DNA of 64,000 bases, from assembly GCF_000384415.1 (NCBI RefSeq), contig NZ_ARVU01000001.1:124001-188000 (forward strand). Direction: 5' to 3'. This document shows, one piece after another, positions 10,515 through 22,939 of this stretch (position 1 is its first letter; each line of letters opens with the position of its first letter). Origin of the DNA: Cycloclasticus pugetii PS-1 (GTDB lineage: Bacteria > Pseudomonadota > Gammaproteobacteria > Methylococcales > Cycloclasticaceae). Position numbers and translations under genes: made by a program. The notes beneath the pieces were generated by a model. It was not told the DNA's origin and searched no databases. It saw nothing but the letters and a program-made list of their open reading frames with translations.

Positions 10515-11444
10515 TTATGGACGTGCAATGTGCTTAAAAGAAACTTGGTTTCTACCATTGTTCTTTGCAGAGTAAAGAAGTTCATCCGCTTCTTTAATGA
10601 GATCGTTCTCGTTATTTTCCTTGTTTGGGTGCATTGTTGATAATCCTATGCTGGCAGTTAAGATAGGAAGCGTTGGTGCTTTTTTATTAGGAATATTTAA
10701 AGAAAGAATCTCATCAAGTAATTTACTAAGCAAAACCTGTGCTTTATCTAAACTAGTGTTTCCATACACTATCGCAAACTCTTCACCACCATACCGAGCA
10801 CATAGATCACTTGGCCTTGTGGCAAAGCTTTTTAGGACTTGGCCGATTGATTTTAAACAGCTATCGCCGGCCTGATGTCCGTAAGTGTCATTTAGTAATT
10901 TAAAATGGTCAAGATCAACGATGGCCAGTGAGATGGGCATCCCAAGGCGGCGGCATCGCTTCCATTCACTATCTAGAAATTCATTAAAGTATCGGCGGTT
11001 TGGAATATCCGTTAAGCCATCAATACGCGATAAATTGAGAACCTCTTCTTCGGCCAGTTTTCGTTCGGTAATATTTTGGTGTGAAATGACAAAACAGTGA
11101 TCACCCTCTACAGTGAAGGGGGTCACGCGCATCATAAACCAGCGTTCTTCATTAGGGCTATGGCATGGGTATTCAAAGTAAAACTCTTTTTTATCGGCTG
11201 CTATAACCGATCTAATTCCGCTGGCAGCTTTGACGCCAAAGTCATCGCCCATAGCCGCTGCTTTATCGCATTCGCTTAAATAATTAACGCCGCTCCATCT
11301 TTCATCTATCAAACAGGCATTGTTTTGCCCAAATGAGCTCCAACTCTTATTTACAAATAAGATGTCGCCTTGACTATCTATCACCACAATATGTTCTGTA
11401 ATGGTATCGAGAACAGATTTTAGGAAATCATAGGATTCAATCAT
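10515..11444 (-). CDS. PAS-GGDEF diguanylate cyclase
   Basis: 309 residues. An N-terminal PAS domain (about 8-128; VIDSQGDILFVNKSW) is joined by a short helix to a GGDEF domain (about 135-300). The active site is GGEEF at 219-223, and an intact RxxD inhibitory site (RPSD, 210-213) lies exactly five residues before it. It should make cyclic di-GMP from two GTP and be product-inhibited. There is no membrane helix, so the sensor is cytoplasmic. The PAS ligand is unknown. The start is followed upstream by a 57-bp gap to the zinc-finger gene. Confidence 0.93.
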   Translation of the reverse strand: MIESYDFLKSVLDTITEHIVVIDSQGDILFVNKSWSSFGQNNACLIDERWSGVNYLSECDKAAAMGDDFGVKAASGIRSVIAADKKEFYFEYPCHSPNEERWFMMRVTPFTVEGDHCFVISHQNITERKLAEEEVLNLSRIDGLTDIPNRRYFNEFLDSEWKRCRRLGMPISLAIVDLDHFKLLNDTYGHQAGDSCLKSIGQVLKSFATRPSDLCARYGGEEFAIVYGNTSLDKAQVLLSKLLDEILSLNIPNKKAPTLPILTASIGLSTMHPNKENNENDLIKEADELLYSAKNNGRNQVSFKHIARP

Positions 11445-11501
11445 CTGTTACCCCTATTTTTTTATAAGATAAAAACCAAACGAGGCGTATCATTCACCTT
11501 T

Positions 11502-11870
11502 TTATACTCTTTGCTCACTACGTTTTCCAAAATAGTGCCCAGTTACTGCCCCAACGAGAGTCCCTGAAAAAGTAAGGATTTCAGAAAAGTGAGGGTTTTT
11601 AGTAAGGCCAAAGGAGAAAATAAGAATAAAACAGAAACAGATAATGCTGATTGCTAATAAGGGCGTGGCTCGGTTATTCATTCGATAAGTAAGGGTGTCA
11701 GTTTTACCTAGTCCACCACAGGTTCCGCAGGCTAGCCCCATGTAGTTACCACGTTTCAGTTCTTGCTTTTTTACACAGGCAGCGCATGCGTCGCCATTCT
11801 CTCCATGGTTGCAAGTTCCTGTTCCTGAGCAGTGTGCGCAGTCATGTAGGTGATACTCTTCATTATTCAT
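11502..11870 (-). CDS. Small membrane protein with DnaJ-like zinc-finger cysteines
   Basis: 122 residues. The first 60 contain paired cysteines in DnaJ zinc-finger spacing: CAHCSGTGTC, CAAC, then CGTCGGLG, suggesting one or two zinc sites. Residues 70-92 and about 96-113 are hydrophobic, giving a membrane hairpin with the finger in the cytoplasm; the end GHYFGKRSEQR is basic. There is no J domain. It lies 90 bp downstream of the ferritin-like gene, past a hairpin. I do not recognise a named family; a chaperone-like or redox role is only a guess. Confidence 0.65.
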   Translation of the reverse strand: MNNEEYHLHDCAHCSGTGTCNHGENGDACAACVKKQELKRGNYMGLACGTCGGLGKTDTLTYRMNNRATPLLAISIICFCFILIFSFGLTKNPHFSEILTFSGTLVGAVTGHYFGKRSEQRV

Positions 11871-11910
11871 GTTCGATCATTCCTTAATCAACACTCTGTT
11901 TAAATTAACA

Positions 11911-11932
11911 GACGGCGCATTTTTGCGCCGTC
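11911..11932 (-). terminator. Hairpin after the ferritin-like gene
   Basis: GACGGCGCA pairs perfectly with TGCGCCGTC around a TTTT loop. The 9-bp G+C-rich stem lies 29 bp past the stop of the ferritin-like gene and 40 bp before the start of the zinc-finger gene. The trailing T-run is weak, so termination may be partial or Rho-assisted. Confidence 0.6.
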
Positions 11933-11960
11933 CAAGTTAAATCATCCAGTTAGGCGTTGC

Positions 11961-12248
11961 CTATTTATGTGCGATGGGTTTGTCGGTAAATAGGTAGTCT
12001 TTTAGTTCTTTGTCCATCCTTGGGTCTTTTCTTCTAATCCATTCAAGAACCATGGCAGCATGCTCTTTCTCTTCATCTCGGTTGTGAGCAAGAATGGCTT
12101 TTAATTCTTCATCTTTGCATGCATCAACTCGTTGGTTATACCAATCTACCGCCTCAAGTTCTTCCATAAGGGAGGTGATGGCTCTATGCATATCTCTTGT
12201 TTCATCTGTAATTTCACTAATAGGTTCGTGATAGCCTTCATTTGACAT
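11961..12248 (-). CDS. Encapsulated-ferritin (EncFtn) homologue without targeting tail
   Basis: 95 residues. SLMEELEAVDWYNQRVDA and HNRDEEKEHAAMVLEW are the EncFtn ferroxidase helices: Glu29, Glu30, Glu32, Trp36, Tyr37, Glu60 and His63 line up with the iron and entry residues of the Rhodospirillum rubrum protein. EncFtn oxidises Fe(II) as a decamer and normally carries a C-terminal extension ending in a GSLGIGSLK-like encapsulin-docking peptide. Here the protein ends at YLFTDKPIAHK and no such peptide is encoded after the stop in any frame I read. No encapsulin shell gene is in the window. It follows katG by 77 bp, suggesting joint oxidative-stress control. Confidence 0.85.
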   Translation of the reverse strand: MSNEGYHEPISEITDETRDMHRAITSLMEELEAVDWYNQRVDACKDEELKAILAHNRDEEKEHAAMVLEWIRRKDPRMDKELKDYLFTDKPIAHK

Positions 12249-12281
12249 ATTTTTAATCCTTTTTTATTTCCTTAGTTTATA

Positions 12282-12314
12282 CGGCTCCCCGTTAAGGGGT
12301 TTAACGTGGAGCCG
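12282..12314 (-). terminator. Hairpin between katG and the ferritin-like gene
   Basis: CGGCTCC and GGAGCCG close the base; a second pair, CGTTAA with TTAACG, continues it after one mismatch around a GGGGT loop. It lies just past the katG stop. No strong T-run follows, so it may attenuate katG transcription, letting part of it run into the ferritin-like gene 34 bp further on. Confidence 0.55.
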
Positions 12315-12325
12315 CAATATAAATA

Positions 12326-14846
<2,521 letters not shown>

Positions 14847-18502: not shown

Positions 18503-18595
18503 GTAGTCCTTTATGCGATTGTATGGAGACCCTTGGGTTTTTATTAACAAAAAGGCCAAGTTCTATATAACAATAACACTCTAAACCAAGGAAAC

Positions 18596-18615
18596 GGGGT
18601 CAGGTCTTGCAATCA
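18596..18615 (+). repeat. Left terminal inverted repeat of the Y1 element
   Basis: GGGGTCAGGTCTTGCA followed by ATCA; 20 bp, a perfect inverted copy of 19490-19509. The similarity continues inwards for about 7 bp with two mismatches. It contains the transposase stop codon, so the repeat encodes the last residues DCKT. Confidence 0.9.
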
Positions 18616-19463
18616 CGCATCTCCGCTTTTTTAATGGCTCGACTAACCGTTGAATAATGCACATTAAACACATCAGCAATGTCTTTCATTAAATAATCAC
18701 CACTGACATATGCACTAACGATTCCCTCGTCACGTGAGGAATAATTTTTCATATACCAGTTTAAAGGTTTAGCTTGCGCCCTACGCTGTACTCTTGGAAC
18801 TTCTCTAAGGTCACCTTCTCCAGCAATGTCTTCAATTCGTGTTAGCGCCTTATCAACAAATGCATCGTCACCTAAAAAAACTTGTCGCTTCAAAGCAGCC
18901 CATATTGGCGACAGGCCAACGCCCTCACGGACAAAGTTTTCATAATTAATGACGGCAGTTTTTCTAGAATGACCAAAATGGTTTAATATCCAGTCCGTTT
19001 CCAACCAATCTGAACTAGAAACAACACCGATCATCGCCTGATAACTACTCCATTTCCAGTCCGACAAATCTGTTACCATTCCCGCTCTAATTGGGTTTAG
19101 TACAACATAACGTGATAATTCAAGTAAGTAAGCATCTTTTTGAACAAGAATAGCCTTAAATCGCCCCTGAAAAACATGACCAACACGCCCATGCCTTCGA
19201 TTAGACTTTTGGGTAAATACTCCATTCAGTTGGCGCATCCCTTGTGACAAATTCCCCTCAATTGTTTCAATAACAATATGGTAGTGGTTATCCATCAAAC
19301 ACCATGCATGGCATCGCCAATTAAACCGATGACAAACCTGAGAAAAAACCTCTAACCAAATCAACCTATCTTCATCGTCAACGAAAATATCTTCACGTCG
19401 ATCACCACGAGAGGTCACATGATAAAGCGCACCCGCATATTCAATTCTTATTGGTCTAGCCAT
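18600..19463 (-). CDS. REP-associated tyrosine (Y1/HUH) transposase
   Basis: 287 residues. The N-terminus ARPIRIEYAGALYHVTSRGD is the standard start of TnpA-REP (RAYT) proteins; the metal-binding HUH motif is DNHYHIVIE near residue 60, and YVVLNPIRAGMV near 120 holds the candidate nucleophile tyrosine region. The C-terminal third ends in a helix-turn-helix (LMKDIADVFNVHYSTVSRAIKKAE). It cuts and joins single-stranded DNA at hairpins. The gene is full length and intact. Its stop lies within the left inverted repeat, and its start is 27 bp inside the right one. Confidence 0.93.
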   Translation of the reverse strand: MARPIRIEYAGALYHVTSRGDRREDIFVDDEDRLIWLEVFSQVCHRFNWRCHAWCLMDNHYHIVIETIEGNLSQGMRQLNGVFTQKSNRRHGRVGHVFQGRFKAILVQKDAYLLELSRYVVLNPIRAGMVTDLSDWKWSSYQAMIGVVSSSDWLETDWILNHFGHSRKTAVINYENFVREGVGLSPIWAALKRQVFLGDDAFVDKALTRIEDIAGEGDLREVPRVQRRAQAKPLNWYMKNYSSRDEGIVSAYVSGDYLMKDIADVFNVHYSTVSRAIKKAEMRDCKT

Positions 19464-19489
19464 AAACAGACCCTATCAACACAAATGCA

Positions 19490-19509
19490 TGATTGCAAGA
19501 CCTGACCCC
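19490..19509 (-). repeat. Right terminal inverted repeat of the Y1 element
   Basis: TGATTGCAAGACCTGA then CCCC; the exact reverse complement of 18596-18615. It lies upstream of the transposase start, so it may also hold part of that gene's promoter or operator. Confidence 0.9.
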
Positions 19510-19533
19510 CTTATTTTTCTTTTGAGCGTTTTG

Positions 19534-19875
19534 TTAGCTTTTAATGTTAAGTGAGTCCCTAATTTCTTTTTCATGAAGAATGCCATCATATTTAGAGGCT
19601 ATGTTTAAAAATTCGACATTTATTCTTTCTTTAAGAGGCCGCAAATTACTGTTTATCTTTACCGCATGGCCACCCCATTCTTTCTGGGTTTTACCTTGGG
19701 ACTTCAAGTCATCTATAATTTTAGAGTGATAGTCAATTTTTTCTTGGATTAGTGATGCGGAGTGAATAAGAGAGTTTATTTTTCCATTCTTAATTATTTC
19801 CTTTTTCTGTAAATGTAAAGCCCAAACCGCTATAGCTAAGGCAATAGTTCCAATTACTACTTCTATATACTCCAT
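19534..19875 (-). CDS. Cassette 2 gene: single-pass membrane protein of unknown function
   Basis: 113 residues. One N-terminal helix (VVIGTIALAIAVWAL, about 6-20) is followed by a charged, helical, probably coiled-coil domain (LQKKEIIKNGK, SLIQEKIDYHSKIIDDL, LKERINVEFLNIA). The ATG has AGAGG 4 bp before it. Its TAA stop lies inside the attC R'' box, as in many integron cassettes. I recognise no family. Codon use is more A+T-rich than in the flanking core genes, in keeping with acquisition. Confidence 0.75.
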   Translation of the reverse strand: MEYIEVVIGTIALAIAVWALHLQKKEIIKNGKINSLIHSASLIQEKIDYHSKIIDDLKSQGKTQKEWGGHAVKINSNLRPLKERINVEFLNIASKYDGILHEKEIRDSLNIKS

Positions 19876-19893
19876 ATATCCTCTATTTGTGGA

Positions 19894-19956
19894 AGCTAAC
19901 GCTTAGGGTAAAGCGCGCGGGCTTTTTCCGCGTCGCCTTTGACCCACTTGTTATAC
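19894..19956 (-). other. attC1, recombination site of cassette 1
   Basis: 63 bp. Read on the minus strand it opens with GTATAAC (R'') and ends with GTTAGCT (R'). Between them GGGT-AAAG-CG-CGCGG pairs with CCGCG-CG-CTTT-ACCC around an A-rich loop, and three bases on one arm (C, G and A) are left unpaired, the extrahelical bases that direct IntI to one strand. The stop codon of the cassette gene is inside R''. Size, imperfect pairing and bulge polarity all match attC. Confidence 0.9.
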
Positions 19957-20409
19957 GTATTTCGTAAGGGCATTATTAACATAATTATAAGCCTGATTAA
20001 CATCCTCTATATTAGCGGAATAATTAATATATTTATAAAGAAATTCTAATGCAAAGTATCTTTTTATTTCTGTATATTGATTAACCATAGGGTGATTTGA
20101 GTAACCATAAATGGGTTCTGAAAATTCTGGAAATTGATCTATTGTGATGTCGAAAATCAACCCATCAACTTCAACCCAAAAATGGCTTTCTGATTCTTTA
20201 TCTTTTCCATGAATCACCTCAACGGATAAATCAGGAAATTTCTCTATTAAAATCCACGCTAACAAGCAAGAGGAGCCTTCACATGAATTATTAGGGAAGC
20301 CATAAAAGAAAGGAAGTCCGATTTTTTCCTTTTCTTTTGCAAATAGTGACCTGATAAATTTTGACAGCTTGATGAGATCATCCATGCTCACCGGCTCCTT
20401 TACGTATAA
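19900..20409 (-). mobile_element. Integron gene cassette 1 (510 bp)
   Basis: It starts with TTATAC after the G of the attI core (20410) and ends at the G of attC1's R' (19900). As a circle its R' would be GTTATAC, the exact reverse complement of its R'' GTATAAC. It carries one gene (19951-20385) in the leftward sense, the usual orientation away from attI, with only 18 bp of leader before the start. Confidence 0.85.
19951..20385 (-). CDS. Cassette 1 gene: putative transglutaminase/papain-like fold protein
   Basis: 144 residues from the ATG at 20385, which has AAGGAG 9 bp upstream; a GTG at 20391 is only 3 bp from that site. Three blocks suggest a Cys-His-Asp thiol-enzyme fold: a cysteine before a helix (NNSCEGSSCLLAWIL, Cys35 or Cys40), a strand with ESHFWVEVDG (His68) and the next strand LIFDITIDQF (Asp79). 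The spacing is like the transglutaminase/NlpC-type core, but activity is unproven. It is cytoplasmic, with no signal peptide. Visible A+T-rich codon use supports its being acquired. Confidence 0.75.
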   Translation of the reverse strand: MDDLIKLSKFIRSLFAKEKEKIGLPFFYGFPNNSCEGSSCLLAWILIEKFPDLSVEVIHGKDKESESHFWVEVDGLIFDITIDQFPEFSEPIYGYSNHPMVNQYTEIKRYFALEFLYKYINYSANIEDVNQAYNYVNNALTKYV

Positions 20410-20477
20410 CTAGTTATTAAGGGGAATAAAAACTCCCTGTAATTTCTTTACTTATAAGGAATATAATTCCCTGTAAT
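20404..20477 (-). other. attI recombination region of the integron
   Basis: It lies between intI and cassette 1. The simple core site is GTTATAC on the minus strand (20410-20404). On the intI side are two direct repeats, GGAATAaaaacTCCCTGTAAT (20423-20443) and GGAATAtaatTCCCTGTAAT (20458-20477), 35 bp apart, in the place where attI1 has its accessory IntI-binding repeats DR1 and DR2. Position and layout fit an attI; binding is not shown. Confidence 0.7.
20423..20477 (+). repeat. Direct repeat pair in the attI region
   Basis: Two copies of 21 and 20 bp (20423-20443 and 20458-20477) share GGAATA and TCCCTGTAAT exactly and differ only in the centre. They overlap the candidate cassette and intI promoters, so they may bind IntI or a repressor. 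Confidence 0.75.
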
Positions 20478-20513: not shown

Positions 20514-21536
20514 ATGTCCAATTTCAATAGCCCTTCAGAGAATAAGTCAATTTTTCGACCACAATCCAAACGTTTAATGGATCAGGTTCGAGAAGTTCTT
20601 CGGTATCATCATTATGCCTTGCGTACTGAAGAGTCGTATATCAAATGGATCTTAGCTTTTATCCGTTTTAATAATAAAAGGCACCCTAACGAATTGGGTA
20701 AGGCTGACATTGAGGCATTTTTGTCAGATATGGCACTGAATAAGAACTATTCGGCCTCTTCTCAGAATCTTGCAATGAATGCGATTGTTTTTTTGTATAA
20801 AAAGGTTCTTGATATGCCTGTGGCGGAGAATATTTCGGCGGCACGATCCAAAAAACCAGTGCGAATTCCTGTTGTTTTGAGTAAAGGTGAGGTGGTTGAG
20901 CTTTTAAAACATATGCGGGGAGTGAGGGGTTTGATGGCTCGTTTAATGTATGGTGGCGGCTTAAGGGTATTGGAGGTGTCGCGCTTACGGGTACAAGATA
21001 TTGATTTTGCTAATGGCTATCTTATGATTAGAGATAGCAAGGGTGGTAATGAGAGAAAAACACCTTTGGCGGCTACGGTTGTAACGGATTTAAAGTTACA
21101 GCTAGAAAAAGCCAGGTCATTATTTGAGAAAGATCTTGCAGCGGGTGAAGCGAATGTTTACTTACCGGGTGCGCTGGCTAAAAAATACCCTAAGGCAGCT
21201 TCAAGTTGGGAGTGGCAATATGTATTCCCATCTAAGAATTTATCAGTCGACCCGCGAGATGGTGAAATAAGGCGTCATCACCTTAATGAGTCGGGTATTC
21301 AAAAATCTATTCGTGAGGCAAAGCAAAAAGCCAATATCAATAAAAGAGTCACGAGTCATACCTTAAGGCATTCGTTTGCGACACATTTGTTGGAAGCCGG
21401 TACAAATATTCGCGTGGTGCAAAAATTATTGGGCCATAAAGATGTTAAAACCACTGAAATTTACACCCATGTATTACAAGAAAACATGGATGGGGTGATT
21501 AGCCCCTTAGAACGTTTAGAGGGATTGAATGAATAG
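20514..21536 (+). CDS. intI: Integron integrase (tyrosine recombinase)
   Basis: 340 residues. The tyrosine recombinase residues are Arg151, Lys176, His282, Arg285, His308 and Tyr317, each exactly five positions beyond those of IntI1 (146, 171, 277, 280, 303, 312). The IntI-specific patch between motifs II and III is present at about 244-270 (VDPRDGEIRRHHLNESG), which separates it from XerC/XerD. It catalyses attI x attC and attC x attC recombination on folded single-stranded attC. AGGAGG lies 12 bp before the ATG. The gene is intact, is divergent from the cassettes, and its end overlaps the next gene by 8 bp. I saw no LexA box (CTGT-N8-ACAG) upstream. Confidence 0.97.
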   Translation: MSNFNSPSENKSIFRPQSKRLMDQVREVLRYHHYALRTEESYIKWILAFIRFNNKRHPNELGKADIEAFLSDMALNKNYSASSQNLAMNAIVFLYKKVLDMPVAENISAARSKKPVRIPVVLSKGEVVELLKHMRGVRGLMARLMYGGGLRVLEVSRLRVQDIDFANGYLMIRDSKGGNERKTPLAATVVTDLKLQLEKARSLFEKDLAAGEANVYLPGALAKKYPKAASSWEWQYVFPSKNLSVDPRDGEIRRHHLNESGIQKSIREAKQKANINKRVTSHTLRHSFATHLLEAGTNIRVVQKLLGHKDVKTTEIYTHVLQENMDGVISPLERLEGLNE

Positions 21537-22338
21537 AAAAAACACCGGCGCACAACGCATTGTGTGCCTAACTGAAGAAACCACCGAAGCCTTGTATTTA
21601 ATGGGAGAGCAACAGCGCATTGTAGGTATTTCGGGCTTTACTGTGCGCCCCGCGATGGCCCGTAAGGAAAAGCCTAAAGTGTCGGCATTTACCTCGGCTA
21701 AAATTGATAAAATTTTGGCCTTAAAGCCGGATTTGGTGCTGGGTTTTTCCGATATGCAGGCGGATATTGCAGCTGAACTTGTTAGGGCTGGTTTGCAGGT
21801 GCATGTGTTTAATCAGCGTTCAGTGGGTGAAATTTTTACCATGCTGCATACCTTAGGCGCGTTGATTGGTGAGCCTGAAAAAGCGGCGGTGCTGGTGAAC
21901 CAATACCAGCAAAATATTAAACAATGTGTTGAGCAAGCCAGTGGCTTTAAGAAAAAACCGAGCATTTATTTTGAAGAATGGGATGACCCATTAATTTCTG
22001 GAATTCGATGGGTGTCTGAGCTGGCTGAAATAGCAGGGGGTGTGGATTGTTTCCCCGAGTTATCAAAACAAGGGGGGGGTAAAGATAGAATTATTGCCGA
22101 CCCTAAGACGGTGATTGACCGCGCGCCGGATATTATTATTGGTTCGTGGTGCGGTAAAAAGTTTCGACCAGAGCGAGTGGCTGAGCGTGAGGGCTGGGAT
22201 GTTATTCCTGCGGTAAAAACGAATCAACTGTTTGAGATTAAATCGGTGGATATTTTACAACCGGGGCCAGCTGCGCTGACCGATGGCTTGCGTCAGCTAC
22301 AAACTATTATTAACAACTGGGTGATGCTATATGGATAA
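21529..22338 (+). CDS. BtuF-like cobalamin-binding protein without signal peptide
   Basis: 269 residues with the two lobes of a class III (BtuF/FepB) binding protein: IVCLTEETTEALYLMG, KIDKILALKPDLVLGFSD, and a second lobe with PDIIIGSWCGKKF. The N-terminus MNRKNTGAQR has no signal sequence, so it would be cytoplasmic, as in a group of gammaproteobacterial proteins annotated as cobalamin-binding. No BtuC or BtuD partner is nearby. The ATG lies inside the intI stop region, suggesting translational coupling, and its own stop overlaps the next gene by 8 bp. Confidence 0.82.
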   Translation: MNRKNTGAQRIVCLTEETTEALYLMGEQQRIVGISGFTVRPAMARKEKPKVSAFTSAKIDKILALKPDLVLGFSDMQADIAAELVRAGLQVHVFNQRSVGEIFTMLHTLGALIGEPEKAAVLVNQYQQNIKQCVEQASGFKKKPSIYFEEWDDPLISGIRWVSELAEIAGGVDCFPELSKQGGGKDRIIADPKTVIDRAPDIIIGSWCGKKFRPERVAEREGWDVIPAVKTNQLFEIKSVDILQPGPAALTDGLRQLQTIINNWVMLYG

Positions 22339-22939
22339 GGTGCTGTATTACGTACACGACCCAATGTGTAGTTGGTGTTGGGCATTTAATAAAACATGGG
22401 CCGCAATACAGTCTAGTTTGCCCAGCTCTATTGAGGTACGTTATTTATTAGGAGGGCTTGCGCCAGACAGTGACCAGCCAATGGCTACCGACTTGCAAGA
22501 GAAAATTAGTGAGGGCTGGTATCGCATTCAGCAGCATGTTCCAGGTACCGAGTTTAATCACGACTTTTGGACTGTTTGTAAGCCACGGCGCTCAACGTAT
22601 CCATCATGCCGTGCCTTAATTGCTGCAAGAATGCTGGATAGAGCAGCAGAAAAGCCGATGCTATTGGCGATTCAACAGGCGTATTATTTGCACGCTAAAA
22701 ACCCAGCCGATGACGAGGTGTTAATAGAATGTGCTGGCGAGATAGGGCTTGATCAAAGCGAGTTTTCGGCCTTATTGAATCACTCAAGTACTCAGCAGCA
22801 ATTATTGATGGAAATAAAATTGGCTAGAAGTATGGGTGCCAGTAGCTTTCCAAGTATCGTGTTACAGCAGGGCGAACAGACCCGGTTGTTACGCTATGAC
22901 TATAACGACCCACAGGTACTATTAAATCAGTTAAGCTAA
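22331..22939 (+). CDS. DsbA/FrnE-like thioredoxin-fold protein
   Basis: 202 residues. VHDPMCSWCWAF places a CxxC redox pair at Cys13 and Cys16 right after the first strand, and SFPSIVL near 180 is the cis-proline loop. The helical insertion between them is that of the DsbA/2-hydroxychromene isomerase-like group. There is no signal peptide, so it is probably a cytoplasmic disulfide or glutathione-linked oxidoreductase. It overlaps the BtuF-like gene by 8 bp and so is likely co-translated. Confidence 0.85.
   Translation: MDKVLYYVHDPMCSWCWAFNKTWAAIQSSLPSSIEVRYLLGGLAPDSDQPMATDLQEKISEGWYRIQQHVPGTEFNHDFWTVCKPRRSTYPSCRALIAARMLDRAAEKPMLLAIQQAYYLHAKNPADDEVLIECAGEIGLDQSEFSALLNHSSTQQQLLMEIKLARSMGASSFPSIVLQQGEQTRLLRYDYNDPQVLLNQLS

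Follow-up and report, generated by a model that had tools for sequence, protein, structure and literature searches.

How has a Y1 transposase element come to lie within an attC site of an integron, and did it choose this site as a folded hairpin? The initial annotation of the window, the whole stretch of 64,000 nucleotides analysed here (G000:C1:124001-188000, in a genome of 2.38 Mb), placed such an element exactly in the loop of an attC hairpin and proposed that two systems acting on single strands had met there. By its sequence features the element belongs to the TIRYT type (RAYT group 1), and a single insertion probably brought it into the variable loop region of the site, here called attC2, between its A-rich and T-rich sides. 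It looks like one chance insertion at a spot of that composition.

The integron

Two cassettes on the minus strand run away from an integrase gene.

20514-21536, plus strand: integron integrase IntI, intact (TIGR02249, 438 bits)
20402-20410, minus strand: junction of attI and cassette 1, GTTATACGT
19951-20391, minus strand: ORF of cassette 1, 146 aa, no family match, overlapping the R'' of attC1
19893-19958, minus strand: attC1, intact
19534-19875, minus strand: ORF of cassette 2, 113 aa, no family match

Integron biology predicts that R'' is complementary to the 5' end of its own cassette. The R'' of attC1, ACGTATAAC, is the reverse complement of the 5' end of cassette 1, GTTATACGT, and the R'' of attC2, AAGCTAAC, is the exact complement of the 5' end of cassette 2, GTTAGCTT. 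The order of intI and a btuF-like gene (20514-22939) is shared by seven further genomes of the genus (L150, L151 and L153-L157), and a dsbA-like gene follows in those loci where the fetched stretch reaches that far. Apparently this is a chromosomal integron that is inherited vertically and whose cassettes differ between genomes. A simple scan for AAC...GTT pairing over the arrays of the genus was too unspecific to give a reliable list of attC sites.

The element and its relatives

18596-19509, minus strand: TIRtron element, 914 bp, outer ends GGGG...CCCC (GGGGTCAGGTCTTGCAATCA...TGATTGCAAGACCTGACCCC)
18596-18615, plus strand: terminal inverted repeat (TIR) at the end near 18596, GGGGTCAGGTCTTGCAATCA
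19490-19509, minus strand: TIR at the end near 19509, a perfect 20-bp match to the other end
18600-19463, minus strand: Y1/HUH transposase TIRYT, 287 aa, with HYH, Y---NP and a C-terminal HTH

The 914-bp unit with perfect 20-bp inverted ends that the initial annotation had described was borne out. Its single ORF is intact. The protein matches Pfam Y1_Tnp (43.4 bits) and the NCBIfam model NF047646 for REP-associated tyrosine transposases (89.7 bits, cut-off 80), and its sole match in the PDB is TnpA-REP (4ER8, E=4e-4). The catalytic motifs H60-Y-H62 and Y119-VVL-NP are present in the alignment, and both HYH and the Tyr of Y---NP are invariant among 14 aligned relatives. HTH_23 is detected in 11 of 14 family members (best 5e-6); the C-terminal HTH of the copy in the window is below threshold (HTH_28, E=0.0098). 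Both ends carry GGGGTCAG, in agreement with the published TIRYT consensus GGGGWSAS (PMC3733652, PMC6006769).

Two routes yielded related copies: 73 loci came from scanning 84,980 genomes, and whole-genome searches added more. Both ends were recognisable in 66 copies, consisting of a first set of 37 that includes the copy in the window and a held-out set of 29, and thus 65 relatives are available for comparison. The same architecture is found in all 65, mostly with a size of about 890-1000 bp. These sequence features identify the element as a TIRtron, a Y1/HUH unit that ends in TIRs and carries a TIRYT gene (RAYT group 1 / TnpA-Y1 subclass 2.1). An IS200/IS605 identity was ruled out by the 20-bp TIRs, the lone ORF and the lack of a match to the NCBIfam IS200 model. 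A typical REPtron identity was also rejected. REP-associated is the database name of the family; the unit itself is of the TIR-bearing TIRYT type.

A copy of the element with 97% identity is present in a genome of the same genus (G016, contig C32, 25067 bp), and among plasmids the TIRYT protein was matched only in Legionella adelaidensis (47-49%). The element is also represented by two isolated end fragments (AGGGTCAGGTCTTGCAATCA...; L003 and L004, at G000:C1:1714383 and 1714887), which are separated by about 504 bp and belong to a tandem duplication before an antitoxin-like gene.

The 5' half and the probable 3' half of attC2

19510-19540, minus strand: attC2 5' half, with R'' AAGCTAAC, a spacer, L'' GCTCAA and the A-rich AAGAAAAATAAG up to the element
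18565-18595, minus strand: probable attC2 3' half, candidate A, GTTTCC...TTTAGAGTGTTATT-GTTATAT, of atypical grammar
18545-18559, minus strand: alternative attC2 3' half, candidate B, TTGGC-CTTTTT-GTTA, with a chance of about 1%

The minus strand reads ...GCTCAAAAGAAAAATAAG up to 19510 and then enters the element. There can be no reasonable doubt about the left arm of attC2, because each R'' exactly complements the 5' end of its own cassette, and judged from its sequence the 5' half is certain to be authentic. Of 301 genomes of the order, 80 contain the 16-mer CTAACAAAACGCTCAA of this half with no more than one mismatch, a figure above that of a control with the reversed pattern. A canonical 3' half, TTAGC-N4..6-GTT, follows within 130 nt in 14 of 39 sampled occurrences, where 2.3% would be expected by chance.

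The 3' half is less regular. In the window the left arm pairs best with 18565-18595. The joined arms have an anchored pairing score of 11.8, a value that 11 of 20,000 random genomic, 18 of 10,000 AT-rich and 44 of 20,000 shuffled partners also attained. This candidate A has TTTAGA as L' instead of TTAGC and a spacer outside the range of 4-6 nt. Candidate B has canonical grammar (TTGGC-N6-GTTA) but pairs more weakly. An attC 3' half is probably present in the flank beside 18596, with candidate A as the probable one, and with either candidate the element would be placed on the loop side of attC2. Of the proposal that the Y1 element separates two attC2 arms, the 5' arm is therefore certain and the 3' arm probable.

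Could the original 3' half have been lost? An insertion accompanied by an adjacent deletion or rearrangement would leave a genuine 5' half, and the complementarity of the right arm would then be a chance product of A-rich and T-rich sequence. This would fit a right arm that lacks the canonical TTAGC and spacing and whose p-value is only about 6e-4 to 2e-3. It would also fit L216 and L217, whose left flanks are almost identical while the right flanks on the far side of the element differ, which suggests rearrangement at the right end. However, chance seldom produces pairing that is anchored at AAC/GTT and keeps the attC register, and no more than about 50 nt away there is another 3' half of canonical-like form. 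Loss of the 3' half is unlikely.

Probable insertion into attC2

The preferred reading remains a single insertion of the TIRYT element. The Y1 enzyme of the element would have cut and joined single strands so that the element entered as a unit, with the A-rich AAGAAAAATAAG of the site on one side and the T-rich GTTTCC...TTT on the other, and the right flank would be the original 3' half of attC2. The site may have been selected by its local A/T-rich sequence and by tolerance of an intergenic insertion, and not by recognition of a folded attC. Several points count against this reading. The 3' half is non-canonical and has two candidates, two relatives (L056 and L073) lie in striking inverted repeats, and movement of TIRtrons as a unit is without experimental demonstration (PMC6006769). 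The lack of an empty site is a further one.

An empty site was sought in relatives, as the initial annotation had suggested, and none was found. The cassette 2 protein has no relative among 369 genomes. The joined 65-nt site gave no full match among plasmids, only short AT-rich partial matches, and the right flank had no match among viral contigs. For other copies, joined flanks were sought in related genomes by a local all-versus-all blast and in the genus of G687, and none of the junctions was spanned. The neighbouring VTT/DedA gene was considered as an anchor and set aside, as its genus relatives are only about 30% identical and not orthologous. Because no empty site was found, insertion is inferred from the anatomy of the locus and is not proven by an uninterrupted homologue.

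Target choice across the family

Y1 enzymes act on folded single-stranded DNA. The transposase could accordingly recognise or capture folded hairpins, in which case it would have entered the loop of the extruded attC bottom strand, with attC as a preferred target. The general properties of Y1 enzymes and the closeness of the junction to a possible apical loop speak for this. So do two relatives within long inverted repeats, and in the first set the left and right flanks are more complementary than permuted pairs (p=0.005, n=37; p=0.013-0.014, n=36, without the copy in the window). This signal is led by the same two copies, L073 and L056. A within-locus control gave p=0.12 on raw flanks and p=0.017 after post-hoc trimming of the tandem repeats that many element ends carry (described below). 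Against the proposal, flank complementarity has p=0.82 in the 29 held-out copies, p=0.60 in copies without end repeats and p=0.12 in the pool of both sets without the copy in the window. None of the 65 other two-ended copies lies in a recognisable attC. Targeting of hairpins by the transposase, with attC preferred, is quite improbable as an account of attC2.

Hairpin loops as a general target of TIRYTs are not supported, and a weak tendency toward them is possible. As a general rule the copies have inserted without regard to hairpins, the outcome that the initial annotation had named as speaking against its proposal; this statement applies to the family and not to the single event at attC2.

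What the copies do share is a bias in base composition. They occupy many unrelated sites, and the left 8 nt of the 65 relatives are A-rich (0.39 against a background of 0.26) and the right 8 nt T-rich (0.34 against 0.25). The contrast of A with T has p=1.5e-6 on the left and p=0.003 on the right. The flanks at attC2, AAGAAAAATAAG and GTTTCCTTGGTT, fit this bias, and the attC2 site is thereby explained without invoking structure.

L073 lies in a long inverted repeat, with AGGTGCCCGGAA before the element and TTTCGGGCACC after it, and L056 in another, with GCGCCAGCACAAA before the element and TTGGCG... after it; the family as a whole is not so placed. At L227 (G832:C32, about 11435-12644) the TIRYT copy has murI on one side and, at a distance of about 150 nt on the other, the start of a decayed N-terminal remnant of intI; this is the second association with an integron in the sample. 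A tblastn search found no intact intI beside any other copy. The left flank of L242 contains a 12-nt attC-like stretch, AACAAAACGCTC, which has neither R'' nor a 3' half and was taken as a coincidence.

Predicted folding and likely fate of the split site

In silico, the joined empty site folds into one hairpin, and the junction lies about 1 base from a possible apical loop within the A-rich/T-rich stretch. The placement exactly in the loop was thus loose. For the bottom strand with the element (991 nt), both the MFE and the centroid predict paired attC arms, two unpaired stretches of 10 nt and, inside, a stem of the 20-bp TIRs. It is likely that the split attC2 with its oversized loop would be much less recombinogenic, or dead. 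If TIRYTs did enter apical loops of folded single-stranded hairpins including attC, and the split cassette could still move with its outsized loop, then one and the same folded bottom strand would serve both HUH transposition and integron recombination. This combined proposal is very improbable.

The remaining alternative, that an ordinary gene cassette (cassette 3) simply carries the TIRYT gene and no insertion took place, agrees with the position of the gene in the array and its cassette orientation but is almost certainly wrong, as the element starts inside the 5' half of attC2 ahead of any R' site, has its own 20-bp TIRs that are met at unrelated sites in relatives, and is followed by no attC after the TIRYT gene.

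Repeats at the element ends

Tandem repeats, or stutters, were found at 48 of the 130 ends of the 65 relatives, with 3.9% in the control (binomial p about 7e-34, the ends taken as independent). In the typical repeat, about 7-8 nt of flank precede the first 2 or 6-7 nt of the element (GGGGTC or GGGGTCA); the element part ranges from 2 to 7 nt overall. An example is CCAAACTTCGGGGTCCAAACTTCGGGGTCAGG at L214. Others are found at L032, L043, L050, L051, L058, L072, L206 and L219, among further loci, and the copy in the window has none. The stutters look like the product of repeated cleavage and rejoining, or possibly of template switching, at the junction. We know of no description of a repeat unit made of flank plus element end. 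The TIR clusters mentioned in PMC3733652 and the stutters may be the same phenomenon.

Significance

The locus is one member of a known element type within one attC and is not evidence for a new class of attC-targeting elements. What can be learned from it? The uninterrupted form of the host site is roughly predictable, which is suggestive that TIRtrons can enter new sites as intact units, a point treated as unproven for this class in the literature. The split attC2 is also a ready substrate for asking how large a loop attC tolerates. The stutters and the A|T target bias from the family survey bear on how TIRYT enzymes work. The host of the split site is a Cycloclasticus, an oil-degrading marine bacterium, and the transposon is of a kind that is known but little studied.

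Comparison with known systems

IS1111/IS110-type elements and group IIC introns have a recurrent specificity for attC, and their enzymes and mechanism differ from those of TIRYT. The present element, like them, interrupts or adjoins an attC, but no recurrent targeting of attC is seen among TIRYT copies. It shares the Y1 core with E. coli TnpA-REP and the REPtrons, as reflected in the sequence match to 4ER8 (E=4e-4). Unlike in the REPtrons, TIRs with GGGG ends flank the TIRYT gene, and the protein has a C-terminal HTH extension.

The closest agreement is with the TIRtrons and their TIRYT transposases described by Di Nocera et al. in 2013, with the TIR consensus GGGGWSAS (PMC3733652). These correspond to TnpA-Y1 subclass 2.1 of Quentin et al. 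in 2018, equal to RAYT group 1, which has C-terminal HTH extensions resembling HTH_23, HTH_28 or Bac_DnaA_C, and no REPs (PMC6006769). According to the latter, class 2 has not formally been shown to move autonomously. The element in the window has the same HUH/Y1 core with Y---NP and C-terminal HTH, TIRs that start with GGGGWSAS, a unit of about 0.9 kb and few copies. It differs from the reported TIRtrons in that it sits in an integron attC. No report of a RAYT or TIRYT in an attC was found in the open-access papers searched, which is weak evidence since subscription papers were mostly outside the search. The nearest case in the literature is ISHahl1, which lies beside an integron CALIN of Halorhodospira (PMC7923331). 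It is likewise a Y1/HUH element associated with attC-bearing DNA, but it is a true IS605 element of the IS200/IS605 family with subterminal hairpins and tnpB, and it is located beside the last attC, whereas the TIRtron described here is located inside one.
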